Translations under genes and position numbers: made by a program | In this document: positions 16,257-33,961 of the stretch, in pieces | Layout of the letters: every line of letters starts with the position of its first letter | How positions within the stretch are numbered: the stretch's first letter is position 1 | Assembly (NCBI RefSeq): GCF_004358445.1 | Contig: NZ_CP037951.1 | Coordinates: 3,876,001 to 3,940,000, forward strand | Source: Parashewanella tropica | GTDB lineage: Bacteria > Pseudomonadota > Gammaproteobacteria > Enterobacterales > Shewanellaceae | Reading direction: 5' to 3' | DNA: 64,000 nt | The notes under the pieces: generated by a model | Told to the model about the DNA's origin: nothing | What the model saw: the letters and a program-made list of their open reading frames with translations, nothing else | The model's database searches: none

Positions 16257-17417
16257 ATGTTAGTATCTTCTGATAATCAATTACCACTCCCGTTTATGAT
16301 TTATCTAGATACAGCAGCTTCTTATCCTGTTTTACCTGAAGTTCAACAAGCACTTTTTGATGCTTTTAAGTTTTCTTTTGCTAACTCAGCATCTAGTCAC
16401 AAATTGGGAGTTGAAGTCTCGGATGAAATACAGCGTGTTAGAGAGCTAATTGCAGATGAAATCGGGGCGTATCCAAGTGAGATAGTGTTTACCAGTGGTG
16501 CGACAGAATCAAATAACATAGCGTTTAAAAGCTTGTTGTTTGGTGGAAGTGTTCCAAGCAATAAAAAGCACATTGTTACCTCACAAATTGAGCATAAATG
16601 TATCTTTGCAATTTGTTCGTATCTCGAAACTCAAGGATTTGAAATTACTTATATCAAGCCAAATGAGAATGGGATCATTACTGCAGAAGCTGTTTCTGAA
16701 TCACTACGTGAGGATACCGCTATAGTTTCAATCATGCATGCGAATAATGAGCTAGGAACAATCAATCCGATTACCGAAATTGGTGAGCTTTGTTTTTCAA
16801 AAGGAGTTTTGTTTCATAGTGATTGTGCTCAGAGTTTTATGAAAGAAGAGATTGATGTCGATGATATGAATATTGATGTTCTTTCGTTGTCGGCACACAA
16901 AATTGCTGGACCAAAAGGAATTGGAGCTGTCTACATTCGTGATTTACGAAAGAAACACTTACAACCTGTAATTCATGGTGCAGGGCAAGAAGATGGCCTG
17001 AGAGGTGGAACCGTTGCTGCGCCATTAATCATTGGGTTTGGTAAGGCGGTTGAGTTATTCCCACGATACTATAGCGATTTTAAAAAGACTGAAGCAAAAG
17101 ACTATTTAATTAATAAGCTAGATTCAAATGACATTCGTTTTTCTGTTAATGGTAACTCGACCACATTGCCAAGCTGTATGTCACTCACTCTTCATGACAC
17201 AAACACTTCCCTGTTGATCAGACAACAAGATGATCAATTTTGTATTGCCCAAGGTTCTGCTTGTACTTCTAAAACGATTGAACCTTCTCATGTATTAACT
17301 GCACTAGGTATGCCGAGGGAGCAGGCAGATAAAACGTTTAGAGTAAGTTTTCCTCTAGATATTACCCGTGATGAGATTTCTACTTTTGTTGAGGCCATAA
17401 AAAAAGCGACAATTTAG
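16257..17417 (+). CDS. sspA: SspA/DndA-type cysteine desulfurase
   Basis: A 386-residue class V aminotransferase-fold, PLP-dependent cysteine desulfurase that supplies sulfur for DNA phosphorothioation. Visible features are MIYLDTAASYPVLPEV at the N-terminus, FTSGATESNN (phosphate binding), IMHANNELG, the PLP lysine in LSAHKIAGPKG (Lys215), and the sulfur-accepting cysteine in AQGSACTS (Cys336). A later ATG (16296) would remove 13 extra residues, but AAGGA sits before 16257. It is convergent with sspD and ends in a shared terminator. A housekeeping IscS is unlikely given the context and the divergent N-terminus. Confidence 0.92.
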   Translation: MLVSSDNQLPLPFMIYLDTAASYPVLPEVQQALFDAFKFSFANSASSHKLGVEVSDEIQRVRELIADEIGAYPSEIVFTSGATESNNIAFKSLLFGGSVPSNKKHIVTSQIEHKCIFAICSYLETQGFEITYIKPNENGIITAEAVSESLREDTAIVSIMHANNELGTINPITEIGELCFSKGVLFHSDCAQSFMKEEIDVDDMNIDVLSLSAHKIAGPKGIGAVYIRDLRKKHLQPVIHGAGQEDGLRGGTVAAPLIIGFGKAVELFPRYYSDFKKTEAKDYLINKLDSNDIRFSVNGNSTTLPSCMSLTLHDTNTSLLIRQQDDQFCIAQGSACTSKTIEPSHVLTALGMPREQADKTFRVSFPLDITRDEISTFVEAIKKATI

Positions 17418-17425
17418 TCGCTTTT
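17402..17425. terminator. Bidirectional terminator between sspA and sspD
   Basis: A perfect 9-bp stem AAAAGCGAC / GTCGCTTTT with loop AATTTA. It includes the sspA stop codon, with A and T tracts on the two sides, so it can end transcription of both convergent units. Confidence 0.8.
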
Positions 17426-17448
17426 CAAGTAATAGGCTTTGTTGAAGC

Positions 17449-18342
17449 TTATTTGTAGCAAGTTACGCAAGCGCCGCCACCTTCAACTTCATCGTAGATA
17501 TCATCGAGATCACCAAATTCACAAGTGCCCCCAAAATCACCAAGTAAAGCATTGCGGCGCTTTTTCTTGTAAAAACGAGCGACTTGTTTTTCATGGTTAA
17601 GAATAATTCTTTGCTTAACTTCGGGGTCTTCCAAAGTTTCTAAAGGTTGTCCCTGCCCCATCCAATAGAATTTTTCACCGACAACAGTATTATCATCCCC
17701 TTTTTCAAAGGCTTTTGCTTCTTCAAAAAGTTGAGGGTGCTTTTCTTTTAATCGAATCCACTCAATTTTGCGTTGATAAAAACAGAAAGTACAACCCGAA
17801 CGAGAACGCCACTCATAGTAAGCAGGAAGCTCAAGGCCATTCCTTTGTAGGATGTTTTCAATGTCGCTTTTTACAATGCCACCTTCACGAAATGGAAACA
17901 CAGAAGTAATTGGCTTCTCAATGGTCATGTAACCAGTACGTTCAGGTTCATCAGCTCTTATACCAACATAGTTCATGATTTTATAGCCATCAGCAATAAA
18001 GCCATCAACCCAACGTTCAAAAGGTTTTAGTTTCATTTGAACGGTACACCAGCGATCTCGTTGTGAAGGTAAGTAGTTGCCATGCTCTTTGAGAAGGCTA
18101 GAAAACTCTTTCTCTCCACGACCTTCAATACCATTGAGAGACCTTGAATTTAAGCGATGTATGAAGCCAAGCTTTTCCTCAAGCTGATCAATAAAATCAT
18201 TGGTTTCTGGTAATTCATAACCTGTATCAGTAAAGAAATACTCGATATCCAAATCTGGTCGGGTTTCCTTTACATACAGAGCAAGAGCACTACTGTCTTT
18301 TCCCCCAGACAAGCCTAAGACATGTTTAACTTTATCTGTCAT
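17449..18342 (-). CDS. sspD: SspD/DndC-like PAPS-reductase-fold ATP pyrophosphatase
   Basis: The protein has 297 residues from ATG 18342; AGGAGG lies 11 nt upstream, inside an 8-residue in-frame extension. The PP-loop LSGGKDSS (residues 11-18) binds and activates ATP. Cys residues likely to hold an Fe-S cluster lie in DRWCTVQ, SGCTFCFYQRK and the C-terminal ACVTCYK. In ssp systems this enzyme adenylates the DNA backbone so that sulfur can be inserted. It overlaps sspC by 11 nt. Housekeeping CysH is excluded by the C-terminal CxxC and the neighbours. Confidence 0.92.
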   Translation of the reverse strand: MTDKVKHVLGLSGGKDSSALALYVKETRPDLDIEYFFTDTGYELPETNDFIDQLEEKLGFIHRLNSRSLNGIEGRGEKEFSSLLKEHGNYLPSQRDRWCTVQMKLKPFERWVDGFIADGYKIMNYVGIRADEPERTGYMTIEKPITSVFPFREGGIVKSDIENILQRNGLELPAYYEWRSRSGCTFCFYQRKIEWIRLKEKHPQLFEEAKAFEKGDDNTVVGEKFYWMGQGQPLETLEDPEVKQRIILNHEKQVARFYKKKRRNALLGDFGGTCEFGDLDDIYDEVEGGGACVTCYK

Positions 18343-21300
18343 TGCTTTCAGTGCCTCCTGTTTCATCCATTAATTCTGTCAAAAGATTAGTTGCAACATT
18401 CAACTTTTCATCTTTAGACATTGTAGCTAATTCCTTTTTCAACTCTTCAATCTTGTTTGTGACACGTTGCTCACTTTCAGAAGATAGCTTCATGTAAGCG
18501 GAATACTCTTTGTAGTTGCCTTTGCTATCAGTTGTGATGAATGCCAAAGGCTTCGAACCAGAGTTGTTTTCGAAGTTACTGAAGGATTCAATTCTTCTAA
18601 ACTGCACACATAAGTTTAATAGTTCATCAAAACCATTTCTTAAATGCTTATCCGTCCAGTTTCTTTCAGGTGTACCCGCTGCTAAGTTAATAATTTGCTC
18701 AAATTTAGCCTTATTCTCTATAAACTTAATAAGTCTAAGTGCTAATTCTTTTACATTCGGTCTTTGCGCAGCTTTCGCTACTCGCTCACAGCGTGCTTTT
18801 AACTCTTCATCAAACTCAGCTGACAAATTGGCTTTAATTAATTCTTTAAATCCTGTCAGTAACATATCGTGTTGAGCCGATAAGTCTTCAATTGCTGTTT
18901 TTAATCGACTTGCAAGTTTAGAGTCAGCATCATCTTGATCTTTAGATATATCAAAAATTGCAGGCAGATCTTCTAAAATCAGTTTGTATGGATCATTAGC
19001 TGCAATAACCTTGTTTCTGAATGCTTTTGCTTCTCTGGTTAATCCTGATTTTTGACCATTATCGGTAAAGCTCTCACCACTGGTTTTCTTAACCCAAGCG
19101 GGCAAACCATGCACGATCCTGACTATGTGTTTGGCAATTCCAAGTATGTCATCATTATTTTTCAGCGAACCGATTGTTGCTTGAGCTAATGTACTGAGCA
19201 AATGGGTCTGAATTTCAGACATTTCAAAATAACGTACACCGGCTTCTTTTGGGTGCTTATAAATCTTATTGACTAACTCTTCGTCCAGCTCAGGAATGAA
19301 AATGAACTGCTGACTCGAATCATAATCATAGAACGCTATTTTCCCTTCAAGTGACTTAAGCAGAGCTAATGCGTAAAGTCGGCAAAGACCTGTTGTTAAG
19401 CCAAATGGCGGTTTCATCCATCTGTCATACAAATCTGCAATAGTCACCATCGTATTGCTGTCTTTGATGAAGTTAAAACCATCTAGCCATAAGGCATACA
19501 TATCTGGGTTACGTTTTTGTTCTTCATCAGACCAAGCACCAGGGAAACCAAAGCCCTCATCAGTTTTGCAGTGCCAACCTTTATTCTTTAAGCATGATAA
19601 GTAAACGCCCTTTTCAGGAGGAAATGAGTCATTGTCAAAACCTAGATCCTCCTCATCTCCATCATTAAGCATTGCATTCATCAATTTGCGAATTGCACTG
19701 TTTGCACTGCCAGAAGGTTTCGTTCGATTTACAAGTTCGTTGATGACTTTAAGATGCAATTTCTCTTCGCTTTTAAGAGGTAAACCTTTTATACCGTATT
19801 CTTTATGATTTAAATTAAATACGGTGTCTGCAATACTAGAAGTTGCAAATGACAAACTTGATTGACGAACAGGGTTACCTTGATGCTCCCAATCTGCAAA
19901 AGCAAACAGTTTATTAAGCTCTGACTCTACATTTCGAGAAGCTGTGATTATTCTTGTTTCAAGCTCTTTTTGAGCAATGAGATCATGTTTAATCTTAACT
20001 TCTTCTTTGGTGACTTTTTGTAAAGCAATCAATTCAATAGCGGCTTCTTTAAGATTATTAACAGACTTAAAGCCAGCAATGGCAATATGCTTTTCTTCAG
20101 TAATCTCACTATCTTTTAAAGCTTTTTCGATTGTTGAGTCAATTGGCATTAAAAACGTCAAAAATGACTCACTTGATGTCGGTTCGTTTTTAAAAGCGTT
20201 AATAAAAGCTGCATCGACTTTGCTCACCAACTGCGTTTTAGCCCATCGCATAGTGCCTGTTTGGTGATAATGCGCTGTCGCTAAAATGTTTTGTGGCATA
20301 TCACAAACAGATGTCCAATCTACGCCATCACTTATTGACTCAATTTTTTCAAGTATGAGGTTGTGAATATCGACATCACTGCCTTGAAAGATAAACAAGG
20401 CATTGTGCTTGTTTCTGAAAATGACTACAGACCAAGCTTCTAAATCATCAATAGCCTTTTTAATTTCATTTACAGACACACCTCTAGCTTTAAAGTACGC
20501 AACGAGGAACTCTTTACTTGCATGCAAATGATGGTGGAACCCAAAAATAGTTAATAAGGCGATGACCTTAGTTATCGAATCATGAAGATCTGTGCCTTTC
20601 TGGCTTGCTCTATGAATCGCATCACATCCTTCAAGCCAAGCTTTACTATCATGAGAGGTAACAATGAGATGGTGTAAATTATGATGTAAGTAATCCCAGA
20701 ATTGTTCAGGAGAATATAAAGCATTGGTCGATACTGACTCACTGTAATTCTCTGATAAAAACTCTCTAAATCCATACTTTTCATGTGATGCAAGGAAGCC
20801 GAATAAACTCCTTTCATTCTGAGAAAAACGTCTTCTTGAGATTGGGCCAAGTAGCAAGCTCACTAACGGATCAATTGGTAATGTTTTTATTAATGCTCTT
20901 ACATTACGATTCTGATTAGAAAAGTGACATGCCACATTTTCAACTAATGAAGAGTAGTTATCTTCTAATGTGGTAGCCGTCGCTTCGTCTTTCTTAATTG
21001 AATCACCGACTAGAACTAAAGACTCATCAATAGATGGATTGAAGCTTAGATCACGATATCGACCTTGTACCTTTGCCCACTCTTGTTGTGCTTTTGTATC
21101 TTTGTTTTTGGCGTAATCGATAAATGCCTGATGCAAAAAACCTATTAATACTACTGGTGTGGAAGATTGTTGGCATATGTCGGCTAAAGACTGAAACAAA
21201 TGCAGGTCTTTATTGGCTCGGGATTGAAAATCTAAAGCCTTGCCCATCTCGTCAAGCAGAACAACAATTCCATCATGCTGCTTAGCATTAAATGTGAAGG

Positions 21301-21793
21301 CTGATTTAATTTGCTCTAGACACTCTTCGTCATTTAGTTGAGCAATCTGTTTTACATCGTATTCAATGCTTAAAGACTCACTAACACTTACTAGAATTGA
21401 GTGCGCAGGCGACTCTAAGCCACATACATGCTTGACTATATGCCAGCCTTTTTTAACGTTCAATCTTGATTGAAAGTCTTTCAAAGCTTCACTGTGTTGA
21501 TTTAACTTTGATTGTGCATATTGGCGCTCATCTACATTTTTTGATAGAAGTGAAGATAGAAATAGCGCAATAGTAGATTTACCAGAGCCATAAGGACCAG
21601 TTAAAGTATAAGTTCTTTGAGCACTTCCAGAGATATCTCGACTGATAGTATCAAGAACATTTATCGCTGTACCGTGAACGATAAAGCTATCAACAAATTC
21701 TTGATAATCATGTGCTTCGCTATCAATCCTTGTTGAACTTTTGTATCTCTGGTTAATTGTAATGAGTTCTTGTGCCATGCGATCAGTTGCCAT
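18332..21793 (-). CDS. sspC: SspC-like large P-loop ATPase of the phosphorothioation system
   Basis: The protein has 1153 residues. Walker A GPYGSGKST is at 66-74 and Walker B VVLLDEMG at 177-184, inside an N-terminal AAA-like module. The remaining about 850 residues are mostly helical with no recognisable second motif. In ssp gene clusters a protein of this size and architecture sits between SspB and SspD and is required for single-strand phosphorothioation. It overlaps sspB by 11 nt and sspD by 11 nt, so sspBCD is one translationally coupled operon. Confidence 0.88.
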   Translation of the reverse strand: MATDRMAQELITINQRYKSSTRIDSEAHDYQEFVDSFIVHGTAINVLDTISRDISGSAQRTYTLTGPYGSGKSTIALFLSSLLSKNVDERQYAQSKLNQHSEALKDFQSRLNVKKGWHIVKHVCGLESPAHSILVSVSESLSIEYDVKQIAQLNDEECLEQIKSAFTFNAKQHDGIVVLLDEMGKALDFQSRANKDLHLFQSLADICQQSSTPVVLIGFLHQAFIDYAKNKDTKAQQEWAKVQGRYRDLSFNPSIDESLVLVGDSIKKDEATATTLEDNYSSLVENVACHFSNQNRNVRALIKTLPIDPLVSLLLGPISRRRFSQNERSLFGFLASHEKYGFREFLSENYSESVSTNALYSPEQFWDYLHHNLHHLIVTSHDSKAWLEGCDAIHRASQKGTDLHDSITKVIALLTIFGFHHHLHASKEFLVAYFKARGVSVNEIKKAIDDLEAWSVVIFRNKHNALFIFQGSDVDIHNLILEKIESISDGVDWTSVCDMPQNILATAHYHQTGTMRWAKTQLVSKVDAAFINAFKNEPTSSESFLTFLMPIDSTIEKALKDSEITEEKHIAIAGFKSVNNLKEAAIELIALQKVTKEEVKIKHDLIAQKELETRIITASRNVESELNKLFAFADWEHQGNPVRQSSLSFATSSIADTVFNLNHKEYGIKGLPLKSEEKLHLKVINELVNRTKPSGSANSAIRKLMNAMLNDGDEEDLGFDNDSFPPEKGVYLSCLKNKGWHCKTDEGFGFPGAWSDEEQKRNPDMYALWLDGFNFIKDSNTMVTIADLYDRWMKPPFGLTTGLCRLYALALLKSLEGKIAFYDYDSSQQFIFIPELDEELVNKIYKHPKEAGVRYFEMSEIQTHLLSTLAQATIGSLKNNDDILGIAKHIVRIVHGLPAWVKKTSGESFTDNGQKSGLTREAKAFRNKVIAANDPYKLILEDLPAIFDISKDQDDADSKLASRLKTAIEDLSAQHDMLLTGFKELIKANLSAEFDEELKARCERVAKAAQRPNVKELALRLIKFIENKAKFEQIINLAAGTPERNWTDKHLRNGFDELLNLCVQFRRIESFSNFENNSGSKPLAFITTDSKGNYKEYSAYMKLSSESEQRVTNKIEELKKELATMSKDEKLNVATNLLTELMDETGGTESNDR

Positions 21794-22724
21794 AGTACTT
21801 ATTTAAAAATGCTTGAGGTTCTTTAAGTAATGAATCTGAGATTTTCACCTGTCTTAAGCCGAGTGAGTCAATCCAAGATATATCGCTATTGGTAATCTCT
21901 TGAGCTTCATCCAGTTTTTGACCTAAGCCCGTTTCCGATAATCTAAAAATTCGTCCGGGAGAACATGGCTTTGTCAGTAAAGAATCAAAGTCGATGGTAT
22001 TTATCTTAGATTCAGCAGTCTCTACTCTCATAAAATGGAGCAATGAGTAGATAAAAATTTCAATAGGTAAACTCTCACGTTCATCTAACTTACTGATGTA
22101 AAAACCACCACCCAGTTCTTGAACTAAATCAAGTTCCGCTAAAGGAGAGGTAAAATGATCTTCGTTAACAGTTTCTTTCTTTTTAGAAGAGGTGTTTTTA
22201 ATCTTTTTACAGTATGTATTTAGAAAACAATCTACATCTTTTTTGATGGTATTCGGATTACCAATATCGTTTGTAACCATCAAGCTGCAATCGTCAATTG
22301 CATCCGAAATTAATTTTGATTTTTCAAAATGCTGTACATTTGAAAAGTTAAAAAAGTAGCGATAACTTGTAAGTGTTTCGAAGTTAAAATTCAACCAAAA
22401 ATGAATCAGCCAAACCGAACCAATTTGTTCAAGGTAAGGATCTCTTCCGTTACCTTCGTGGTCTTTATCTTCAAAAAGGTAGTTCCCTAGCAATGTGACG
22501 GATTGCTCAGACTTAGTATTAGTAGACATTACGTTACAAGCTTCAGCCCAATAACGAATGGCATTAACCATGTTTTTACCAACACCGAGGTTTACAATGG
22601 CTTTTCTTACTGACTCTTCATTAGAAGTCTGAATTTTTCCACCTAAATTCAAGTGGTTAACAGCTTTATAAAGCCAACCATATCTAAGAGGGAAGGTATC
22701 GTGTCCCGTAAATTTTGCTTTCAT
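21783..22724 (-). CDS. sspB: SspB-like DUF4007 protein
   Basis: The protein has 313 residues from the ATG at 22724. The DUF4007 hallmark FTGHDTFPLRYGWLYKA starts at residue 4, so the 18-residue in-frame extension upstream looks superfluous. GVGKNMVNAIRYWAEA follows, also typical. SspB nicks one DNA strand at the target motif in the characterised ssPT system and so defines strand specificity. It is the first gene of the leftward sspBCD operon and is divergent from the helicase gene. Confidence 0.9.
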   Translation of the reverse strand: MKAKFTGHDTFPLRYGWLYKAVNHLNLGGKIQTSNEESVRKAIVNLGVGKNMVNAIRYWAEACNVMSTNTKSEQSVTLLGNYLFEDKDHEGNGRDPYLEQIGSVWLIHFWLNFNFETLTSYRYFFNFSNVQHFEKSKLISDAIDDCSLMVTNDIGNPNTIKKDVDCFLNTYCKKIKNTSSKKKETVNEDHFTSPLAELDLVQELGGGFYISKLDERESLPIEIFIYSLLHFMRVETAESKINTIDFDSLLTKPCSPGRIFRLSETGLGQKLDEAQEITNSDISWIDSLGLRQVKISDSLLKEPQAFLNKYYGN

Positions 22725-23037
22725 GCTTCTGCTGTTTTGGAGGATTTGTCCAGAAATGAAGTGTATACGGGTTTTCACTGAGATAAAAGTATGAACATCA
22801 TATTTATGGATATTTATACAGTGAGTCCATATTTTGAATGACTTGAATTATATGCACTAATTTAATGTATAAAAAAATTAATAATTTGATGCGAAGTTGT
22901 TATGTTTTCGTACAGCTAAATATGTGATAAATAGCGTTTTTTTTATACATCCTAGATGTTATCATAATTATCATAAGAAATTACTTAGATCTAATTATTA
23001 TAAGTATTATTTTTGAACTTAATAGTGAGTAACGTTT
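22725..23037. promoter_or_regulatory. Divergent promoter region of the two PT modules, with a 9-bp tandem repeat
   Basis: This 313-bp, very AT-rich region separates sspB (leftward) from the helicase gene (rightward). At 22959-22976 the 9-mer TTATCATAA occurs twice head-to-tail with no spacer, a likely regulator or RNA-polymerase-associated site. TATAAG/TATTAT near 23000-23010 could be the rightward -10. No candidate regulator is encoded directly alongside; the 57-residue HTH protein at 32122-32295 is the nearest in the island. Confidence 0.5.
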
Positions 23038-24654
23038 GTGCTAAGAACTTTAGTTTATAGGTGTCCGGAACATTCATTGATACCTTTACTATCAGAAAAT
23101 GCAATAAAAATTGCTGAATCTTATTTGAACAGAGAGTTAACGAAAAAAGAAATTGTAGACTCCTTGATCAATAAAGATGCTATCAATTTTATAGAAAACA
23201 ATAAGCTCAGAAATCTGATCATAAAAAGCTTGAGTGAAAATGAAGCACGAAATCTTATTGATAATAAACTTGGTCTCGAAAAGTTAGGATTAAAAAAAGA
23301 AGATTACTGGACTTTCCTACAGGAATATATTCCAAATACTTTGACTGAATGGGCTGAATTTTTAGGGCTCAAAGACGAGTATTCAGCAGCAAATCAATCA
23401 TCACAAAAAACTGTCGATACTTTGTATTCGCAGCCTAGCTATTCACTTTACCCTTATCAAAGAGATATTGTTAGAAAAGTAAATACATTAATATCTGACC
23501 CTGAGAAAGACCGCCTTCTGATTCATTTACCCACAGGAGCAGGAAAAACAAGAACAGCTATGAGTATTGCTTCAGCACACTTGTCAAATCGAGAAGACGG
23601 ATTAGTGCTTTGGTTGGCCGATACAGAAGAGCTATGTGCGCAAGCGACTATAGAGTTTCATAAATCTTGGAGTGCACTCGGTAATCGAGGTGTAAGTGTA
23701 TATTCATATTATTCTGACTCCAATAAAACTTTGAGCTCTGTAGAATCCGGTTTCATTTCAGCAGGATTGCAGCGGTTAAATTCAAGAAGAAATGGAAGCG
23801 AAAAGGCTTATTTTCAAAAACTTTTAGATAAAGTCTCATTGATTATTTTTGATGAGGCTCATAAGGCTATAGCTAAAACTTATAAAGAAACCGTCAATGA
23901 ATTACTGAATAATGGTAGAGAAAAGTTTTTAATAGGTTTATCAGCAACCCCCGGGAGAAAGTTCTCATTAGACGATGAAACGGAAGATAGGCAGCTGTCA
24001 AAATTTTTCTCAGAAAATAAAATTACTATGGCAGTTGAAGGTTACAGATCACCTATACAATATTTGATAGATGAGAGGTATCTTGCTGAGCCTCAGTATT
24101 TACCCATCGATTACGAGGGAAGTACTAATTTAGAGTTTACAACAAAACAAGTGAAGGAAGAGCTCAATCAGCTATTGAAAAATCTTTCTACGGTTGAATC
24201 TAGAAACTCAGCGATTATCAAACAAGCAATTCTAGAATATGAAAATGAGGCTTCAATTATTATTTTTGCATGTAACGTTGAGCATGCTATAGCACTATCT
24301 GAAACACTTAATTGCTTAGGTTATCCTTCTGCCTCGGTCACATCTTCAGAAGATACAGTGCAGTCGAGGCGGTTTAAAATTCAACAGTTTAAGCACAGAA
24401 AGCTAAGAATATTAATAAATTTTGGAATCCTAACCACAGGCTTTGATGCACCATGTACGAACGTGGCGATTATTGCAAGACCAACGATGTCGTTAGTTTT
24501 ATATTCTCAGATGGCTGGTAGAGCTATGAGAGGGAAAAAAAGCGGTGGTAACGAATCATGCAAAATTTATACGGTATTAGATAACATTCCAGAATTCACA
24601 AGTCTATGTAAAGCTTTTGGTCATTGGAATGATAACTGGAACGAAGTAGAGTAA
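23038..24654 (+). CDS. Superfamily 2 DEAH-type helicase of the PT restriction module
   Basis: The protein has 538 residues. An N-terminal helical domain (about 1-125) without a known family precedes an SF2 core: a Q-like motif YPYQRDIV, motif I LPTGAGKTRT (164-173), DEAH (272-275), LSATPGR (301-307) and motif VI QMAGRAMRG. It ends 2 nt before the GHKL gene. Helicase, GHKL and nuclease together resemble the SspFGH three-gene cassette reported to restrict unmodified DNA beside sspBCD; which letter it matches I cannot settle from memory. The start is GTG 23038, the only one after the upstream in-frame stop; no clear RBS. Confidence 0.82.
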   Translation: MLRTLVYRCPEHSLIPLLSENAIKIAESYLNRELTKKEIVDSLINKDAINFIENNKLRNLIIKSLSENEARNLIDNKLGLEKLGLKKEDYWTFLQEYIPNTLTEWAEFLGLKDEYSAANQSSQKTVDTLYSQPSYSLYPYQRDIVRKVNTLISDPEKDRLLIHLPTGAGKTRTAMSIASAHLSNREDGLVLWLADTEELCAQATIEFHKSWSALGNRGVSVYSYYSDSNKTLSSVESGFISAGLQRLNSRRNGSEKAYFQKLLDKVSLIIFDEAHKAIAKTYKETVNELLNNGREKFLIGLSATPGRKFSLDDETEDRQLSKFFSENKITMAVEGYRSPIQYLIDERYLAEPQYLPIDYEGSTNLEFTTKQVKEELNQLLKNLSTVESRNSAIIKQAILEYENEASIIIFACNVEHAIALSETLNCLGYPSASVTSSEDTVQSRRFKIQQFKHRKLRILINFGILTTGFDAPCTNVAIIARPTMSLVLYSQMAGRAMRGKKSGGNESCKIYTVLDNIPEFTSLCKAFGHWNDNWNEVE

Positions 24655-24656
24655 AT

Positions 24657-26459
24657 ATGAAAAATAACATCATCCCAGCATCCCTTGCTATCACTTCGAT
24701 GAGAGATAGTGGTTATAAAACAGCTGCTCATGCAATTGCTGAATTAATTGATAATAGTATTCAAGCAACAGCTACAAATGTTCAATTGTTGTGTATTGAT
24801 AAATCAAAACAAGGTGGCCTACGAGCAGTTAAGCATGTTGACCAAGTAGCTATATTCGATGATGGTAAAGGTATGGCAAAGCATGTTTTACAACAAGCGC
24901 TTCAATTCGGCGGAGGCTTACATAGAGAAGATTCCTCAGGGATTGGGAAGTTTGGCATGGGCTTACCAAGTGCAACTATTTCCCAGTGCAGGAGATTAGA
25001 TGTTTATAGTTGGCAAAATGGCATTTGCCACTATACATATTTAGATGTGAATGAAATTGAAGCTGGTAATTTAGAAAATGTTCCAGAGCCTATTGAAAAG
25101 CCAGTGCCAGAGGTTTGGCGAGAAGCAATTGGTGAAGATTACAACCCAGAGCACGGTACCATAGCTATTTGGAGTGATCTTGATAGAATTTCTTGGAAAA
25201 CGAGTAAATCTTTATACATTCATTCTGAAAAACTCATTGGGAGAATGTATCGATATTTCATTAATGATAATCGAGTCAAAATTCGTTTCAAATCATTTAC
25301 CAATGAAATCAGTCTAACACGAACTGATAATAAGCTTTTTAAAGCGAACGATCCTTTATTTTTAATGAAAAATACTGTCTTACCAGATCTTCCCGGTAAT
25401 TATATTAATGAAACTTTTTTTGAACCTTTTGGGGAAGAACAAGTTATTCACGTTGAAAGCTCCTCTGGACTAAGGGGTGTTGTCAAAATTAAGTATTCTC
25501 GCGTTCAAAGAAGTATTCATCAAGAGTTACAGAGAGTTGCTTCTGTAGCCGTAGGCTCGACTAAATGGGGTAAGATAGCTGCTGAGAACCAAGGCGTTTC
25601 CATAGTAAGATCTGGTCGAGAACTAAAAGTAACGGAAATTTTTTCGTCAGTATCAGAGCCTCGTGAAAGATGGTTTGGTGTTGAGGTTTCATTTTCTCCA
25701 GAACTAGACGAGCTATTCGGTGTAACGTTTGATAAGCAAGATGTTGTTAACTTTGAAAGAATTGACTTAAAAGTTGAAGCAGAGAATGAAGGCTATGATT
25801 CTGAAAACTCAAAAGAATACTCAGAATTTGTTGATATATTTGAGAGAGAGAAGTCGGATCGCTATTGGATTTATTTCATTGGTAAAGAAATTCAAGCTAA
25901 CTTAAAAGACCTCAAAAGTTACGTCAAAACATTAGCCGAATCAAAACCTCAGAACAACAACCCTGATGAGCAACCAACTTTAAGCAAAGCAGAGCATACT
26001 GCGAAGAAAATAGCTGAAAAAAGGATTGCGGAAAAAAGACCTACAAATTCAGATCGAAAGTTTCATGATCCAGAAACTCCTGCGAAGGAAAAAATTGATA
26101 AGATTAAAGAAACTCTTTCTAGAGAAGGGGTAGATGTTGTAGAAGCAGAGACAGTTGCAAGGACCTTGGTTACAAGTGATTGTAACGTCAAATTTATGGA
26201 GCAACCTCTAAAAGGTAATATTTTGTTCGATGTTGCTAGAGAGGCAGGCACGATTATTGTTTTGCTCAATTCAAACCACGAATTCTACCAGTTTTATGAT
26301 TCTGTTGATGATGATAAAAAAGAGCTTCTAAAGTTAGTTTTGATTGCTTGGGCTCAGGTCGAGGATAACAGTTCAGAAACAGAAAGATCTGATATGGAAG
26401 ATATCCGAAGTCGTTGGGGCAAAGAAGTTAAAAAATATCTTTTTGAACTCAATAACTAA
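24657..26459 (+). CDS. GHKL (HATPase_c_3-like) ATPase with C-terminal partner domain
   Basis: The protein has 600 residues. The Bergerat fold is clear: N-box ELIDNS (29-34), G1 box DDGKGM (68-73) and G2 box GKFGMGLPS (97-105), followed by a transducer-like half. No histidine-kinase H-box or response regulator is present, so this is a MORC/Hsp90-like mechanical ATPase. A basic Lys/Glu linker (about 440-480) leads to a C-terminal domain (about 505-600, LKGNILFDV region) that recurs as a free-standing protein in the next gene. It starts 2 nt after the helicase stop. In context it should work with the helicase and PLD protein against unmodified DNA. Confidence 0.82.
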   Translation: MKNNIIPASLAITSMRDSGYKTAAHAIAELIDNSIQATATNVQLLCIDKSKQGGLRAVKHVDQVAIFDDGKGMAKHVLQQALQFGGGLHREDSSGIGKFGMGLPSATISQCRRLDVYSWQNGICHYTYLDVNEIEAGNLENVPEPIEKPVPEVWREAIGEDYNPEHGTIAIWSDLDRISWKTSKSLYIHSEKLIGRMYRYFINDNRVKIRFKSFTNEISLTRTDNKLFKANDPLFLMKNTVLPDLPGNYINETFFEPFGEEQVIHVESSSGLRGVVKIKYSRVQRSIHQELQRVASVAVGSTKWGKIAAENQGVSIVRSGRELKVTEIFSSVSEPRERWFGVEVSFSPELDELFGVTFDKQDVVNFERIDLKVEAENEGYDSENSKEYSEFVDIFEREKSDRYWIYFIGKEIQANLKDLKSYVKTLAESKPQNNNPDEQPTLSKAEHTAKKIAEKRIAEKRPTNSDRKFHDPETPAKEKIDKIKETLSREGVDVVEAETVARTLVTSDCNVKFMEQPLKGNILFDVAREAGTIIVLLNSNHEFYQFYDSVDDDKKELLKLVLIAWAQVEDNSSETERSDMEDIRSRWGKEVKKYLFELNN

Positions 26460-26481
26460 CTTTCGCTCAGCACCATAATTT

Positions 26482-26503
26482 AAAAGGGCTTTCGAGCTCT
26501 TTT
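26482..26503 (+). terminator. Hairpin with UUCG tetraloop and T-tract
   Basis: The stem AAAAGGGCT / AGCTCTTTT (one G-T wobble) is closed by the stable TTCG loop and followed by further Ts. It is a good intrinsic terminator or attenuator between the GHKL gene and the small gene, and may lower expression of the downstream half of the module. Confidence 0.65.
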
Positions 26504-26537
26504 TTACTTAACAACGCATGTTATTGTTGGGTTTCAT

Positions 26538-26918
26538 ATGTTTAGTTTTCTAAAAAATATTAGAACTTTTTTTAAGACAAAATCAGAATTAGAGCCTCAG
26601 GTTAAGAATGAAGTACTCCCTATAGACTTCTCTGAATTTGATGTCAAATTTGAGTTTCGCGAGCTTAAAGGAAACACTTTGTTCGAAATTGAAAGGCTTA
26701 GCGGGTTAACCATAATCATTTTGAACATCAAATCCTCATTTATTGAACAGTTAAAAGATGCTTCACAAGAGACTAAGAATACTGTGTTTACTCTTATTTA
26801 CTCGATGGCGAATATTGAACAAAAAAGCTCAGATTATGAACAAGAGGTTCTTGAGCGCTTTAGGTTGAGGGTTGGTAAGACATTATCTTCTTTACCAATG
26901 TATTCTAAGGAAAAATAA
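26538..26918 (+). CDS. Free-standing copy of the GHKL C-terminal domain (126 aa)
   Basis: The protein has 126 residues. Residues about 40-120 align by eye with the last about 90 residues of the preceding GHKL protein: LKGNTLFEI matches LKGNILFDV, LTIIILN matches TIIVLLN, and the pattern of the following two helices is kept (MANIEQKSS versus WAQVEDNSS). The N-terminus is short, hydrophobic-basic (FSFLKNIRTFF), and could bind a membrane or partner. It ends 1 nt before the GTG of the PLD gene. I infer an adaptor that bridges GHKL and nuclease, or a dominant regulator of GHKL dimers. Confidence 0.7.
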   Translation: MFSFLKNIRTFFKTKSELEPQVKNEVLPIDFSEFDVKFEFRELKGNTLFEIERLSGLTIIILNIKSSFIEQLKDASQETKNTVFTLIYSMANIEQKSSDYEQEVLERFRLRVGKTLSSLPMYSKEK

Positions 26919-26919
26919 A

Positions 26920-27864
26920 GTGAATTTAATCACTGCGGATCACCTGAGTAATGAATTAGAAGCACAGTTTTCTAGTGCACAATCAATAAAAATTATTACC
27001 GGTTATTTAACGCTATCTGCAGCAGAGTTTTTGCTGAACTCAATCAGTGACGAGACAACAGTTCAATTGATTGTAAGAGCGAGGCCGCAGGATCTCATAT
27101 CAGGTGCCACGGATATTGATGCAATTAAGCTTTTATTCAAAAATGGAGTAAGGTGCCATATTCATAGAACCTTACATGCGAAATTGTACGTAATCGATAA
27201 TAAATACGGTTTTATAGGCAGTGCAAACTTTACTTCTAACGGCTTAAAGCTCTCTGGTTATGGCAATTTTGAACTATCGACAAAAACAAAGCTAACCGAT
27301 AAAGATAATGGGCTCATTAGAGAAGTTTTTAATGATTCGATTATGGTTACTAAGCGAGTAATAGAGACTCTAGAAGGGTTTGTATCAAGTAGCTCTGCTA
27401 CACCTGAACTAGACAGCTCTACCAAGGGATGGTGGAATGAATTGATTGCTCCAGAGGCTTCATATACTTGCGATAGACTGTATATTTCTGATTTACCTTG
27501 GGTGAACCTAGAACAAGATTTGTCATCTCTTGATGAGTCATCAGAAAATTTTTTGCATGATGTTGATGTCTTTGGTTTAGAAGTCGACAAAAATGGTAAT
27601 GCTAGAGCATTGAACTTCCAAAAAAGTAAGATTTATCAATTTTTAACAAGAGAGTTAAGTTCTAAAGAAAATAAAGAACTTTACTTTGGGGAACTAACAT
27701 CAAAAGTTCATGATTTGCTTGTTGATGAACCCATGCCATATCGTTCAGATATAAAACAACTTGTTTTTAATTTACTCATTTATTGTAAGGTTTTTTCTAT
27801 GGGTATTTTAACTATTGATACACCAAGTTATTCTACAAGAATAAAGTTAGCAAACCGAATTTAA
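26920..27864 (+). CDS. Phospholipase-D-superfamily nuclease of the PT restriction module
   Basis: The protein has 314 residues from GTG 26920, preceded by AAGGA and 1 nt after the previous stop; an in-frame ATG 48 nt upstream lies inside the small gene. One HKD motif is visible: HAK at 86-88, Asp93, then GSANFTSNG (100-108). A single HKD implies an active dimer, as in Nuc/BfiI-like nucleases. The C-terminal about 170 residues are unassigned. As the only obvious nuclease of the three-gene cassette, it is the likely DNA-damaging effector. Confidence 0.82.
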   Translation: MNLITADHLSNELEAQFSSAQSIKIITGYLTLSAAEFLLNSISDETTVQLIVRARPQDLISGATDIDAIKLLFKNGVRCHIHRTLHAKLYVIDNKYGFIGSANFTSNGLKLSGYGNFELSTKTKLTDKDNGLIREVFNDSIMVTKRVIETLEGFVSSSSATPELDSSTKGWWNELIAPEASYTCDRLYISDLPWVNLEQDLSSLDESSENFLHDVDVFGLEVDKNGNARALNFQKSKIYQFLTRELSSKENKELYFGELTSKVHDLLVDEPMPYRSDIKQLVFNLLIYCKVFSMGILTIDTPSYSTRIKLANRI

Positions 27865-27874
27865 AGGGATATTT

Positions 27875-30007
27875 ATGGCTATTGAAAACCTAGAACGCGA
27901 ACTAGGGGTAATTTACAACGAAATTGATAACGACAAGTTAGTTCTACCTAACTTTCAAAGAAGTTTCGTTTGGACTCGTGATATGCAAAAGAAGTTACTT
28001 GCTTCAACTTTAGTAGACTTACCCATAGGAAGTTTGTTGACTTTAGAAGGTGAAAGTAGTGACTTTTGTAAGCGGAAACTTTGTTTCCCTGATGACTTAG
28101 AATTAACGATAAAGTATTGTGAGTACGTTTTAGATGGACAACAACGCCTTACAACTTTGAGAGCTATACTCTTTGATCTCTTTTCTGGTTCAAATTGGGA
28201 GTCCAATTGGAATAATATGTTTGGCTCACTTAGAACACGCTGGTTCTTAAGTTTGAAAGTAAATGGTAGTGATATTTTTGGCTATAACAACTTGAATTTC
28301 AGGAGTCTAAGTAAGTTTACAGATTCTGAAATAGAACCTCATATCGAGTTTAAAGCAGTACATAAAACCAAAACTGAGGAGTTACATCATCCTGCTAATA
28401 CTAAAGTCTTTAGGGGCAAAGCAAGCGATAAATATACTAAATCTCAGCTAGCTTCAAAGTTTGCAGATCAATTCTTAGTTCCATTATGGGAAGTTTACGA
28501 AGGCGATAAAGGAATTCATAAACGGATTATTGATAAAATTGCAGAACAAAGATGTATCGAATTAAAAGATGAATTAATAGATAATTTAACACTTGATAAT
28601 GTTAAATGTATGTTTGCTCCATTAGAAATTGATGATGATGATTTGAATGAAATATTTCAAGAGAACAAAGAGAAAGATGGCAGCTCAATGTTCCAAAAAG
28701 AGTTTTCTGATCTTAGAGCAGCTTGGGTCAAAGCATTTACTACTGAATTGAATAATTTGGTCAAAAGAAAAGTTCCTATTGTTCAATTAAAAAGAGGCGA
28801 AATTGATAGAGCAGTTTCAATTTTTGAAGCAATCAATAGAGGCGGTGAACCTTTAAGTGTTTACGATTTAATTGTTGCAAAGTCTGCACGCAACAGAGAG
28901 CAGCATAATCTGACTCAAATGTTATTAAATGGCTTGTCAGAAGAAATTAAACTACATGATGAATTAATTTGCTCTACGAACCTCATAAAAGACAAAAGTG
29001 ACAGCTTAACATGGAACTCTGTAGAGTTTGGTGCTGTAAAAGGTAATGAACCAACGAAAATCGTTAAAGATTGGTTCGTCAATCTTCTAACACTCTTAGC
29101 ATATACGAAGTCCAGCAAAGAGCCCGTTGATATCGAACATATAAAACGTGAGAAAGCACTTAGACTCACAGCAGATCAAGTTAATGCTCATATTGAAATA
29201 ACAATTACAGCTATAAATAGAGCATTAGCCTTCTTAAACATAAGATGCGGTGTTGTGAGCTGTAAAGATGTTCAATATAAGTTGATGCTTGTAGTATTAG
29301 GTTATTTTCTTTCTGATGATGACGTATGGACAGATAAGTCAAAGTTAAACAAGCTTGAATATTGGTACTGGGTTATTGTTTTTGGAGGCGGATATGCAAA
29401 AGCTCAGAACACTCGATGCATAAAGGATATCACTGATGTTGAAAGGCTGTTGTCAGGTAAAAACTTATATGAAGTATATCAAGATAGGATGCTAAATGTA
29501 CCTGACTATGTTACAAAAGATATTCTCTTGAGAAGAGATGATGCAACGGATAAAGAATCTAAATCAGTTAGAAACACTATTCTACAATTTGTTCTATCTA
29601 AGAGCCCACTTGATCTATTTCCTGAGCAAGGTAAGACAAGTACTTTAAATGCCTGGGATGTGGCTTTCAATGGATTATTATTAGAATTACACCATTTAAT
29701 CCCACTTGCTAATGTCAAAAAAATTGGAGAAACCTCTTCTAAATTGCGTAAAGATTCACAGAATGTACTGAATAGTACTCTTAATTTGAGTTATATATCA
29801 AAGGATGCTAATAGGAAAATCTCCAGTTATGCGCCTGATGTTTATTTCCAAGAAATTAAACAAACAGAATTATCAAGTCACTTCATAAAGCCTGAGCTTG
29901 TTAGTTTCGAAAACTGTAATAAAGCAGAGGGATGCATTCAAAATCTTGAAGATAGGTTTTCATTACTACAAAACGCAATCAATAATCATGTTCGTGGTTT
30001 AATTTGA
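27875..30007 (+). CDS. sspE: SspE-like DUF262/GmrSD-family PT-sensing restriction protein
   Basis: The protein has 710 residues. The N-terminal DUF262 (ParB/Srx-like) domain shows PNFQRSFVWTRDMQKKLLAS (26-45) and the signature DGQQRLTTLRA (87-97). AINRGGEPLSVYDLIVA is the second family hallmark. The C-terminal DUF1524-like HNH region has LELHHLIPLA at about 602-611, followed by an Asn-rich LNSTLNLSYIS stretch. In characterised systems SspE uses PT sensing to activate NTP hydrolysis and nicks unmodified phage DNA. It starts 10 nt after the PLD gene with AAAGGGA as RBS, so it shares that transcript. GmrSD-type Type IV restriction is the alternative, less likely here. Confidence 0.82.
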   Translation: MAIENLERELGVIYNEIDNDKLVLPNFQRSFVWTRDMQKKLLASTLVDLPIGSLLTLEGESSDFCKRKLCFPDDLELTIKYCEYVLDGQQRLTTLRAILFDLFSGSNWESNWNNMFGSLRTRWFLSLKVNGSDIFGYNNLNFRSLSKFTDSEIEPHIEFKAVHKTKTEELHHPANTKVFRGKASDKYTKSQLASKFADQFLVPLWEVYEGDKGIHKRIIDKIAEQRCIELKDELIDNLTLDNVKCMFAPLEIDDDDLNEIFQENKEKDGSSMFQKEFSDLRAAWVKAFTTELNNLVKRKVPIVQLKRGEIDRAVSIFEAINRGGEPLSVYDLIVAKSARNREQHNLTQMLLNGLSEEIKLHDELICSTNLIKDKSDSLTWNSVEFGAVKGNEPTKIVKDWFVNLLTLLAYTKSSKEPVDIEHIKREKALRLTADQVNAHIEITITAINRALAFLNIRCGVVSCKDVQYKLMLVVLGYFLSDDDVWTDKSKLNKLEYWYWVIVFGGGYAKAQNTRCIKDITDVERLLSGKNLYEVYQDRMLNVPDYVTKDILLRRDDATDKESKSVRNTILQFVLSKSPLDLFPEQGKTSTLNAWDVAFNGLLLELHHLIPLANVKKIGETSSKLRKDSQNVLNSTLNLSYISKDANRKISSYAPDVYFQEIKQTELSSHFIKPELVSFENCNKAEGCIQNLEDRFSLLQNAINNHVRGLI

Positions 30008-30039
30008 TATGTTCTACATCTATGTAGCATAGAGAGCAC

Positions 30040-30076
30040 GATGTCTGAGAAAAAACTTTAGTAAATCTCAGACATC
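30040..30076. terminator. Bidirectional hairpin between sspE-like gene and methyltransferase gene
   Basis: An 11-bp perfect inverted repeat, GATGTCTGAGA at 30040-30050 and TCTCAGACATC at 30066-30076, with a 15-nt A/T-rich loop. It sits between two convergent genes and overlaps the stop codon of the methyltransferase gene. Confidence 0.65.
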
Positions 30077-32114
30077 AACTTTTACTAAACCTATACCCTT
30101 TAACAGCCAAACCCTCATTAGCCAGTACGAGCCCTAGCGCAGGCTTCGTAAGGTTAGGCTCAGGTAAGAGCTCATACTTTGCTAACTCTACTAAAAGGCG
30201 TTTATTAAACGCCTTTTGCTTTTTGAAATCAGCAAAGGAATCATCAATAAACTCGCATTTGTTCAGTAACAAAGGTCGCTTTTCTGGGATCAAATAGTCA
30301 AAAAAGTCGACTTCTTGATCCGCCATTTTGATTTTGATTCGCTCTTCAAGTTGAGGTAAAGGTGAATCATCAAAGCCTTTATAACTCAACAAAGTAACTT
30401 TACCTGAATGAATGTGGATTTTAATTAGCTGGACAGTCTCTAGTTCTCCATACATTTGAAGTGCTGCACCAACATATACTCGAAGCAGCAATGGCAAATC
30501 ATCTACAAATTTTTTATGGAAGGTAAAAGAGTGAGGTTGAGCATGTTCGTAGTTAATGAGGCCAGCTGGGAGTGACTTGTGGCTATCAATACATAGCTCT
30601 TCGATCAGGCTCGGCTCTGCAATCTTAAATAGTATTTCTTTAGCCTCATTGATACAGATATTGTAGTTGTCGAAAAAGGCTTTGATGTCACGCTTTAGGT
30701 TCTCTGGCTGCTTAGTATAAGGTTTTCTTTTTTCGAACAACCCCATAGCAAACAACAAAAGTAAGTCTTCTTTCCTTGATTGCTGTGCTTCTGTGAATGC
30801 TTGAGTGTCATACATTTCACACAATAAGCTGAAGACTTTTTTGTGAGAGCCAATTAATTGTCTGATCTCTTCAGACTTTGAAAACTCTTCATTTACAGGT
30901 ATACGGCCAAGCTCAAGGCACACGTTCCAAAAATCAGTGAATAAATCTGAATTCTGGGTAATAATGAGTTTGGCTTTATCTTTCGCTTGTATTGGCTCGG
31001 GAGAAGTGAGTTGTTGCCATTGATGGTGACGGCTGTATTTAGCAATCAGGTAATTTTGCTCTTCTATTTTGTCTTTGAAGATAATGAAAATACCCGGCGC
31101 TAGTGTTACTACATTTTCTTGGAGGATTCTCTCTATATAAGCCTTGATTTCTGACTGCGCATAATATTTTTGGAACGTATTTCTTGAGGTGATCACGCCA
31201 TCCTTATATGGCGTGAACTGTGCAATATAAGAATTCGCTGCCAACATGACGGAAACAACTAAAAATTTATCAGTAAGTTCCCATGCATTGATTAATGCCT
31301 CTATGCGTTCATCTTGGTCTTCAATAACATTTAGGACAAACCCTAGATTTACAATATCAGAGTTAATTTTTTCATTATCAGGTTGATAGTTTGGATCCCA
31401 ACCTAGAGCATCTAGGCCATGAGCTTGAAGCTCTCGTAAATCATCACCTCTACCGCAACCATAATCAAAAATAGAATAATCACCACTTAAAAAGCCATGT
31501 TTTGCCAATAACTTCATTGGCGCGGAAAGCTCATGACGGACAATGGCGGTTTTATGTCTATCTATTTTTTCTGAGTTATCATCATCCGTTATAATAGAAG
31601 AGCTTCTAAACAACCTGCCATCAATAAGCTCATAGCCTTTACTTTGGATCAAGTTTTGCCACGTTCGTTTAAATCCGATGATCCTCGTGTTCTCATACAA
31701 ACCTGCGTTCTCGCCTTCTTGGGTAATATCAACAAAGTGCTGATAGTGCTCACTGTTAGGTAAAACCATCGTTTCTTTACGGTGTAATATCGGAGGGTTT
31801 TCAGAACCATCGTAAGACGTTATTTTATGCTGGAGTTTAACAAGGTCGACGTTGATGCTTTGTTGCAGAGAAGGATAGGAGTCTGTATAGAAAGTCGGAT
31901 AAGAGAGCAGAGAGACCCGGAATTCTTTCTTAAAGAGCTTTACTAAGTCCCATTGCTCTTCATGAACAGATAACGCTTTTGCAACTGCAGGAATAAAGTC
32001 TTGTAATTGCTTAGGAATAGCTGAAAATGCATCTTTATGGATGTATATGGCATCGGGTAAATGCTTTCCAGCTTTAACTAATGAAGTAAGTTGCTTAAAG
32101 GTAGCTGCGTCCAT
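30075..32114 (-). CDS. DNA phosphorothioation-associated methyltransferase (TIGR04096-like)
   Basis: The protein has 679 residues from ATG 32114; an 18-residue extension upstream runs into the preceding small gene and is unlikely. The N-terminal about 180 residues form a domain specific to this family (RHKTAIVRHELSAPMKLL). The SAM-binding motif IFDYGCGRGDDLR lies at about 213-225, and GWDPNYQPD supplies the acidic end of strand 2. Proteins of this type recur next to dnd/ssp genes, where they are annotated as putative methyltransferases; the substrate is unknown. It converges on the sspE-like gene and is co-directional with a 57-residue HTH gene 7 nt upstream. Confidence 0.85.
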   Translation of the reverse strand: MDAATFKQLTSLVKAGKHLPDAIYIHKDAFSAIPKQLQDFIPAVAKALSVHEEQWDLVKLFKKEFRVSLLSYPTFYTDSYPSLQQSINVDLVKLQHKITSYDGSENPPILHRKETMVLPNSEHYQHFVDITQEGENAGLYENTRIIGFKRTWQNLIQSKGYELIDGRLFRSSSIITDDDNSEKIDRHKTAIVRHELSAPMKLLAKHGFLSGDYSIFDYGCGRGDDLRELQAHGLDALGWDPNYQPDNEKINSDIVNLGFVLNVIEDQDERIEALINAWELTDKFLVVSVMLAANSYIAQFTPYKDGVITSRNTFQKYYAQSEIKAYIERILQENVVTLAPGIFIIFKDKIEEQNYLIAKYSRHHQWQQLTSPEPIQAKDKAKLIITQNSDLFTDFWNVCLELGRIPVNEEFSKSEEIRQLIGSHKKVFSLLCEMYDTQAFTEAQQSRKEDLLLLFAMGLFEKRKPYTKQPENLKRDIKAFFDNYNICINEAKEILFKIAEPSLIEELCIDSHKSLPAGLINYEHAQPHSFTFHKKFVDDLPLLLRVYVGAALQMYGELETVQLIKIHIHSGKVTLLSYKGFDDSPLPQLEERIKIKMADQEVDFFDYLIPEKRPLLLNKCEFIDDSFADFKKQKAFNKRLLVELAKYELLPEPNLTKPALGLVLANEGLAVKGYRFSKS

Positions 32115-32121
32115 TTTGTTG

Positions 32122-32295
32122 TTACTTTTTAAAATTTTTATTGAGTAAGTAGTAATAAGCCCTACCAACTTTCTTGAAAGTTAATTTGCCAGATTCTCTC
32201 AAATGCATCAACTGACAATCACTCACCTTTAACACGGACTTGGCCTCTTTGCTTGTAAGCCACTGAGTTTCACTCTGAGTAGTTGTTTTATCCAT
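32122..32295 (-). CDS. Small HTH_17/excisionase-type DNA-binding protein (57 aa)
   Basis: The 57-residue protein contains TQWLTSKEAKSVLKVSDCQL then MHLRESGKLTFKKVGRAYYY, a winged-helix/MerR-like HTH of the excisionase or DNA-binding family (HTH_17). The stop lies 7 nt before the methyltransferase ATG, so the two form an operon. Since an integrase is not near, a regulatory or recruitment role in the PT island is more likely than excision. It may act on its own promoter in the 90-bp gap shared with the divergent NYN gene. Confidence 0.7.
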   Translation of the reverse strand: MDKTTTQSETQWLTSKEAKSVLKVSDCQLMHLRESGKLTFKKVGRAYYYLLNKNFKK

Positions 32296-33883: not shown

Positions 33884-33961
33884 AACATCTCCCTTACTTA
33901 TCAGAGCATTTAGGCTAATCACTGGTTCACATTTGAATCAATAATCAGCCTTTATTACTGA

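Follow-up and report, generated by a model that had tools for sequence, protein, structure and literature searches.

A stretch of 64,000 nucleotides from the 4.22 Mb genome of Parashewanella tropica (contig NZ_CP037951.1, positions 3876001-3940000; hereafter the window) contains the four genes of SspABCD, a DNA phosphorothioate (PT) modification module. Divergent from sspB lies a five-gene operon at window positions 23038-30007 which, judged from its genes, probably encodes a hitherto undescribed PT-coupled restriction module. Its plus-strand genes encode an SF2 helicase, a MORC/MutL-like GHKL ATPase, a 126-aa protein, a PLD nuclease, and a DUF262-HNH protein (Table 1). They are separated by gaps of 2, 78, and 10 bases, with one overlap of 47 bases, and this spacing is the sole basis for the operon call. 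The helicase and GHKL genes form a pair that recurs beside SspBCD genes in plasmids and genomes, together with either of two alternative nuclease families.

The genes at the locus are real, with intact open reading frames (ORFs). All four modification proteins strongly matched their PADLOC models, SspA, SspB, SspC, and SspD (2023 profile library; ten proteins of the locus scanned at E ≤ 0.01), which bears out the sspA and sspBCD genes named in a preliminary description of the window. The families listed there (DUF4007, PF01507, TIGR04096, DUF262 as GmrSD_N, and HATPase_c_3) were all matched in profile searches, and its placing of helicase, GHKL, and PLD genes beside SspABCD is supported both by the family searches and by recurrence elsewhere. 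In reported Ssp systems the modification is 5'-CPSCA-3'. A promoter scan listed no site within the divergent intergenic region (22779-23037), and the promoter and terminator scan was uninformative, as its sites were fewer than in shuffled sequences. A 10 kb megablast against E. coli genomes gave zero matches.

Table 1 Features of the SspABCD locus and the divergent operon (window coordinates).
Feature	Start	End	Strand	Basis
sspA, cysteine desulfurase (sulfur donor)	16257	17417	+	PADLOC SspA 436 bits, DndA 407 bits; Aminotran_5
sspD, 3'-phosphoadenosine-5'-phosphosulfate (PAPS)-reductase-like sulfurtransferase	17449	18366	-	PADLOC SspD 365 bits; PF01507
sspC, AAA+ ATPase	18332	21793	-	PADLOC SspC 1633 bits
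sspB, DUF4007 protein	21783	22778	-	PF13182 261 bits; PADLOC SspB 293 bits
A+T-rich spacer separating sspB from the divergent helicase operon	22779	23037		259 bases; read from the sequence
SF2 helicase/translocase	23038	24654	+	ResIII, DEAD, Helicase_C; top PADLOC model PbeA, matched in the helicase part
GHKL (MORC/MutL-like) ATPase with C-terminal domain	24657	26459	+	HATPase_c_3 81.6 bits
126-aa protein, possible adaptor	26538	26918	+	31% identity to GHKL residues 506-592, E 8e-8
PLD (HKD) nuclease	26872	27864	+	PLDc_2, RE_NgoFVII, PLDc
DUF262-HNH protein (dufW family), last operon gene	27875	30007	+	GmrSD_N 85.7 bits
Phosphorothioation-associated putative methyltransferase	30075	32168	-	TIGR04096, 696 bits over residues 201-695 (cut-off 150)

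The link between the pair and PT modification was clearest in plasmids. A tblastn search of 72,556 plasmids with the GHKL protein matched 52 records, 12 of them at a coverage of at least 80%. SspC was present in the same record in all 12, compared with 66 of the 72,556 plasmids overall (Fisher p ~1e-37). Eleven of the 12 neighbourhoods were examined, whereas the match values of the twelfth (H6), a Trichormus record, are identical to those of H5; by profile, the helicase was found in all eleven, the PLD nuclease in nine, and a second family, termed QxK, in two. Among the matches listed (28 of the 40 partial GHKL matches and 60 of the 66 SspC plasmids), one of the 28 partial records shares a listed SspC and turned out to hold a locus with GHKL, helicase, PLD, and SspBCD genes. 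In a partial match from Treponema, the helicase, GHKL, and PLD genes have DUF4007 next to them, and one in Roseivivax has neither SspC nor DUF4007.

For genomes, we took the best 80 of 235 GHKL relatives as loci, and used home-made profiles that were seeded from the window and the plasmid loci and rebuilt mainly from these 80. A helicase of the same family was present in 78 of the 80 loci and adjoined the GHKL gene in 77. At least one of the sspB, sspC, and sspD genes was found in 68 loci and all three in 51; among the 49 loci with full flanks, 42 had at least one. Helicase and sspD on the same strand were the closest pair in 33 of 69 stretches (the 68 loci and the window). Of the 12 loci with no SspBCD gene nearby, five were in genomes with DUF4007 elsewhere and seven in genomes with no DUF4007 match. 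The preliminary description would have been refuted by helicase and PLD proteins that best match a non-PT system; this was not seen, since relatives of the GHKL protein share their record or locus with SspBCD genes in 12/12 plasmids and 68/80 genome loci, nearly always together with this helicase.

Two alternative families were found at the nuclease position. PLD was found in 42 of the 80 loci, the QxK family took its place in 12, and the two never occurred together. QxK proteins share a conserved K-V-D-I ... Q-V-K-S-S pattern, from which we read them as a putative PD-(D/E)xK-type nuclease; the member in an Agrobacterium plasmid (L007) has a weak PADLOC match to an "effector endonuclease". Many cyanobacterial SspBCD loci, with or without the pair, also carry an HTH-HNH protein of ~370-465 aa (L035:7388-8776 and similar loci), either upstream of the helicase or near sspC/sspD. 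The idea that this family replaces PLD in cyanobacteria was dropped, because it occurs together with PLD (L005, L045) and in SspBCD loci without the pair.

The reverse test started from DUF4007 (SspB) alone. Counting centre genomes, DUF4007 was detected in the window's phylum (11/398 genomes), cyanobacteria (45/386), Bacteroidota (18/296), Actinomycetota (7/296), and Bacillota (24/299), from which 10, 20, 14, 6, and 20 loci, respectively, were taken (n = 70). The sample left out the window's own genome, four centre genomes reached through the GHKL loci (G398-G401), a cyanobacterial locus at a contig edge (G518), 23 matches in cyanobacteria that ranked lower or were partial, and three weak or partial matches each in Bacteroidota and Bacillota. 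The stretches measured 7.9 to 19.9 kb, and a second, shifted stretch was taken for 35 of the 70 genomes; search depth was uneven, since second stretches were mostly added where the first was empty or cut. A pair, defined as a helicase of at least 120 bits and a GHKL protein of at least 150 bits within the stretches of one genome, was present in 22 of the 70 loci and in all five phyla sampled (5/10 in the window's phylum, 10/20 in cyanobacteria, 4/14 in Bacteroidota, 1/6 in Actinomycetota, and 2/20 in Bacillota).

The other partners looked for in these 70 loci were Pbe-like genes (nine loci), SspFGH (seven, by a home-made profile), SspE (one, together with the pair), and the dufW family (four, two of them with the pair); 30 loci had none of these partners, several of them ending on short contigs. 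SspFGH and SspE were possibly undercounted, because their profiles came from one locus and ten sequences, respectively. A PADLOC recheck of 57 of the 124 larger unassigned ORFs from these 30 genomes found SspG in four proteins and SspF, SspH, and BrxL in three each, with no SspE among the best 25 of 131 families listed. As far as this recheck reaches, SspFGH thus rises from seven to as many as ~11 of 70, still below the 22 of the pair. Since BrxL was matched in three proteins, some DUF4007 loci are of BREX type 4.

A second recurrent neighbour of SspBCD, seen in nine of the 70 DUF4007-selected genomes, is a Pbe-like PLD-fused SF2 helicase together with a PbeC/DndD-like ABC ATPase (L141, L176, L181, L188, L192, L194, L198, L209, L210; PbeC matches checked by PADLOC in L141 and L198). 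Pbe has been reported with Dnd in archaea; here it stands beside Ssp in bacteria.

The proteins of the module resemble DNA-processing machines of known fold. The solved chains nearest to the helicase are RadD (80 bits) and SauUSI (67 bits), and its PADLOC assignment rests on the best 25 of 28 matches listed, the other three being weaker than E 0.0013. A tblastn search of phages with the helicase matched 1824 records, none at 80% query coverage. A profile search of the PDB with the GHKL protein retrieved MORC2/3/4 and SMCHD1, and its AlphaFold model (mean predicted local distance difference test score, pLDDT, 90.9) was most similar by Foldseek to SMCHD1, MORC2, and MutL, with TM-scores by query length of 0.31-0.38 for the first ten. 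The nucleotide-binding residues E29, N33, D68, G72, G97, G100, and G102 are invariant in 51 sequences, and together with the GHKL-transducer fold they place the protein among MORC-like ATPases.

The C-terminal ~90 residues of the GHKL protein follow a helical stretch, and the 126-aa ORF, overlooked in the preliminary description, is a diverged relative of this domain. Comparable extra genes with differing N-terminal parts stand behind the GHKL gene in L018, L019, L023, L028, and L072, of which that in L072 has weak winged-helix matches. By profile, L029 was a borderline match (E 0.005), and the 126-aa ORF of the window itself was missed.

In the PLD protein, whose true start may lie near 26914, four residues of an HKD-type motif (H, K, S, and N) are conserved without exception in the 36 aligned sequences. 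Foldseek with its AlphaFold model (pLDDT 90.6) ranked SauUSI first, Nuc and NucT next, and the NgoAVII R protein tenth; a solved-structure search with the single sequence found nothing. Its PADLOC matches of DrmC type were weak (≤27 bits). Each chain has one HKD motif, so that a dimer is probable.

From these parts we infer a complex that clamps and cuts DNA, together with the polarity of its response to PT, in a scheme as follows. SspABCD would place PT marks on self DNA. The MORC/MutL-like ATPase would dimerise on ATP and clamp or loop DNA, the RadD/SauUSI-type helicase would load and translocate along it, and the PLD nuclease, probably as a dimer, would cut unless PT was met. The GHKL C-terminal domain and its solo relative may hold the complex together or read DNA. 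On self DNA the complex would be held back by PT marks, in line with reports on SspFGH and DndFGH. A second effector, working like SspE or DndI, would be the DUF262-HNH protein. By analogy with such systems we lean, with some reserve, towards a module that is restrained rather than activated by PT.

The opposite polarity, in which the module is activated by PT and cuts only upon sensing PT-marked host DNA, is unlikely but is the strongest of the alternatives. SspE, the best-studied Ssp effector, acts in this way (PMC8092258), and the pair occurs together with SspE in nine of the 80 loci. However, the multi-subunit PT effectors SspFGH and DndFGH are restrained by PT, and no PT-sensing pocket was identified in the three proteins, in which none was sought in detail. 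It is rather improbable that the module is an autonomous defence, DISARM-like or a MORC-type restriction system, which shares islands with SspBCD and is blind to PT. GHKL-helicase pairs do occur in restriction-modification neighbourhoods generally (PMC2292703), the PLD protein has weak DrmC-type matches, and seven of the 12 loci without SspBCD nearby belong to genomes lacking a DUF4007 match; against this stand the SspBCD genes found with all 12 plasmid matches of at least 80% coverage and with 68 of 80 genome loci, helicase and sspD as nearest neighbours on one strand in nearly half of the stretches, and the 22 pairs recovered from DUF4007 alone. That the module serves not restriction but the repair or processing of DNA lesions at PT sites, such as those from oxidative attack, is more doubtful again: the nearest solved relative of the helicase by sequence, RadD, is a named repair helicase and the GHKL fold resembles MutL, but the nuclease is swapped for an unrelated family, and the ATP-dependent restriction enzyme SauUSI ranks first among the matches of PLD and second among those of the helicase. 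It is scarcely tenable that the cassette is SspFGH and the DUF262 protein SspE, as their position beside SspBCD and the DUF262, DGQQR, and HNH-like motifs might suggest, given that PADLOC is negative for both in the window and positive in true loci and that dufW and SspE profiles align over 101 N-terminal columns only.

Several observations weigh against a PT-coupled restriction module. PT modification of the host DNA is itself predicted from genes alone. The link to SspBCD is often loose, with a median gap to the nearest sspB, sspC, or sspD gene of 870 bases and more than 3 kb in 10 of 69 stretches, and part of the signal could be island clustering, because GHKL-helicase pairs are known from restriction-modification islands generally (PMC2292703). 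In four related Chloroflexi loci (L056, L062, L066, L080) the helicase and GHKL genes adjoin, but both nuclease families and SspBCD are missing and the genomes have no DUF4007 match; the upstream neighbours in L066 are rhamnose-type sugar genes. The nearest GHKL relative found (45% identity), in Psychromonas marina (L017:4475-18364), lacks SspBCD and has as neighbours a Pbe-like pair of helicase and ATPase and a DndB-like gene, and this locus is possibly a hybrid of the Pbe-like and helicase-GHKL module types. Neither nuclease family was found in 26 of the 80 GHKL-selected stretches, some of which end at a contig edge. SspE as a stand-in there was not supported (5/26 vs 4/54, p 0.14).

The pair was also missing from 48 of the 70 DUF4007-selected loci, and from the 14 kb examined around one Acinetobacter baumannii Ssp locus. 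According to a 2025 paper, 5,518 of the 5,530 A. baumannii genomes having Ssp lack sspE; with Ssp mostly without sspE in this species and no such module at the examined locus, the module cannot explain all orphan Ssp. That locus also encodes a 637-aa protein with no Pfam match, which faces sspD (L249:18154-20067).

The preliminary description had treated the helicase/GHKL/PLD cassette and the DUF262 protein in terms of SspFGH and SspE. This label fails, because the profiles are negative in the window and strong in true loci: no SspF, SspG, or SspH was listed for the ten proteins (for the helicase, among the best 25 of 28 matches), compared with 787, 726, and 2427 bits in the Agrobacterium plasmid L007 as positive control. 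SspABCD-SspFGH (PMC8092258) shares with the window the modification genes beside a multi-gene restriction set, whereas the helicase, GHKL, and PLD proteins have no relationship with its SspF (Walker A), SspG, and SspH (FtsK-like). Both sets occur together in L007 (by PADLOC) and in L022, L032, L034, L037, L068, and L082 (by the home-made profile).

PbeABCD (CxC-ABC), as described in PMC10853773, likewise combines an SF2 helicase with an HKD nuclease and is linked to PT genes. There, however, nuclease and helicase are fused and accompanied by an ABC ATPase with a DndE relative, whereas the window has split genes and a GHKL ATPase; membership was rejected, as no PbeC was listed for the ten proteins (for the helicase, among the best 25 of 28 matches). 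The helicase and PLD profiles align with the two parts of Pbe-like PLD-helicase proteins from our sampled loci, mostly beside SspBCD (hhalign probability 99.6 for the helicase and 85.3, a weak match, for PLD), from which the module looks like a split Pbe/SauUSI-type engine in which a MORC-type protein replaces the ABC ATPase. SauUSI cuts DNA with modified cytosine. We know of no GHKL partner or PT link for it. It shares the PLD nuclease and SF2 helicase as a single chain (PDB 7clg), in contrast to the separate genes of the window.

In the restriction-modification operons of MORC/paraMORC GHKL proteins (PMC2292703), too, the GHKL ATPase has an SF2 helicase and a nuclease as neighbours, but the string "phosphorothioat" is absent from that paper, and the C-terminal domain of the window's GHKL protein is also encountered as a gene of its own. 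DISARM (DrmA helicase and DrmB with DrmC) was rejected, since neither DrmA nor DrmB was among the matches listed for the ten proteins (for the helicase, the best 25 of 28), as was BREX type 4 (PglZ and BrxL with BrxC, PAPS reductase, and DUF4007), with no PglZ or BrxL listed among these ten. We found no description of the helicase-GHKL set beside Ssp in the literature searched (without preprints, most subscription papers, figures, and supplements), and with a 2023 profile library a name may exist elsewhere; nor is the set described in the accessible parts of PMC10853773, PMC12839542, PMC2292703, PMC12137116, PMC8011034, PMC8569181, PMC11662687, PMC13251355, PMC12904381, and PMC12421847, or in the results and discussion of PMC8092258.

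The DUF262-HNH protein is probably a second, independent effector, by analogy with SspE or DndI. DGQQR and an HNH-like ending HHLIP...N were both read by eye, the latter with a Pfam GmrSD_C score of 16.7 bits, under the cut-off of 23. DUF262, DGQQR, the HNH-type C-terminus, and PT gene neighbours are thus shared with SspE and DndI (PMC8092258; PMC11662687). SspE is further characterised by NTPase and nickase activities that PT stimulates. By sequence, however, the window protein is not SspE: it scored 21.5 bits in PADLOC, compared with 709 for the true SspE of L033, which lies directly behind helicase-GHKL-PLD genes, and its alignment with SspE is confined to the N-terminal domain. A search of solved structures with the single sequence found no chain at E 0.1.

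Members of the dufW family occur in seven other sampled loci (L023, L069, L077, G478, G829, G1616, G1406) and match eight plasmid records, with at least 80% coverage only in pVS127 of Vibrio scophthalmi. There the gene and sspD are 74 bases apart and sspABCD is complete, with no helicase-GHKL-PLD genes within the 26 kb examined, so that the dufW protein probably acts alone, like SspE or DndI. Since all seven loci were drawn from samples with a prior link to Ssp or the module, pVS127 is the sole independent evidence for dufW. The pair is accompanied by a DUF262-HNH protein in 12 of the 80 GHKL-selected loci (nine with SspE, one of them a contig-edge fragment, and three with the dufW family). 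The set is therefore not as unusually complete as had been supposed, and the novelty lies in the module itself.

The methyltransferase downstream is of the TIGR04096 type, as had been described, with ~200 extra N-terminal residues. Its proposed pairing with an HTH gene was not recovered: Pfam detected an HTH neither in the methyltransferase nor in the gene that follows it (32386-32973; a PIN7 match under the cut-off), and HTH genes lie further on, encoding an Xre/MbcA-like antitoxin-type protein (33506-33922; both Pfam matches slightly below cut-off) and an HTH_3 protein with a weak HsdR N-terminal-like domain (34499-35635; HSDR_N_2, just below cut-off). For the suggested integrative and conjugative element (ICE), conjugation genes are present (VirB4/TrbE, TrbL/VirB6, a coupling protein, and a 216-aa relaxase-like ORF, by Pfam), but no integrase was matched among 40 window proteins scanned with Pfam, so that the element may be either an ICE or an integrated plasmid. 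The window also encodes an ArdC-type antirestriction protein adjoining the conjugation genes (11865-12857), a HipA-like kinase (37565-38881), and an NYN nuclease domain fused to an OST-HTH/LOTUS domain (46943-47653).

Of 2,678 sspBCD loci surveyed, 2,211 (printed as 83.9%) had neither SspE nor SspFGH, and unknown restriction partners were one explanation raised (Wang 2021, PMC8092258). With so many orphan loci, the helicase-GHKL module is a good candidate for part of this gap, and, as the pair is the commonest partner in the SspB sample of those looked for, the orphan question becomes testable with one cloned operon. We tentatively suggest, as a possibility just short of an even call, that a helicase and a MORC-like ATPase, with an exchangeable nuclease (PLD or QxK) and a likewise exchangeable adaptor derived from the C-terminal domain of the ATPase itself, constitute a new class of Ssp effector, commoner here than SspFGH or SspE and spread over at least five phyla. 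If so, a sizeable share of the published orphan SspBCD loci would be accounted for by this class. MORC-type ATPases would gain a defined bacterial context beside a DNA mark, and a bacterial relative of the eukaryotic MORC/SMCHD1 silencers would be a reader of a mark in the DNA backbone.

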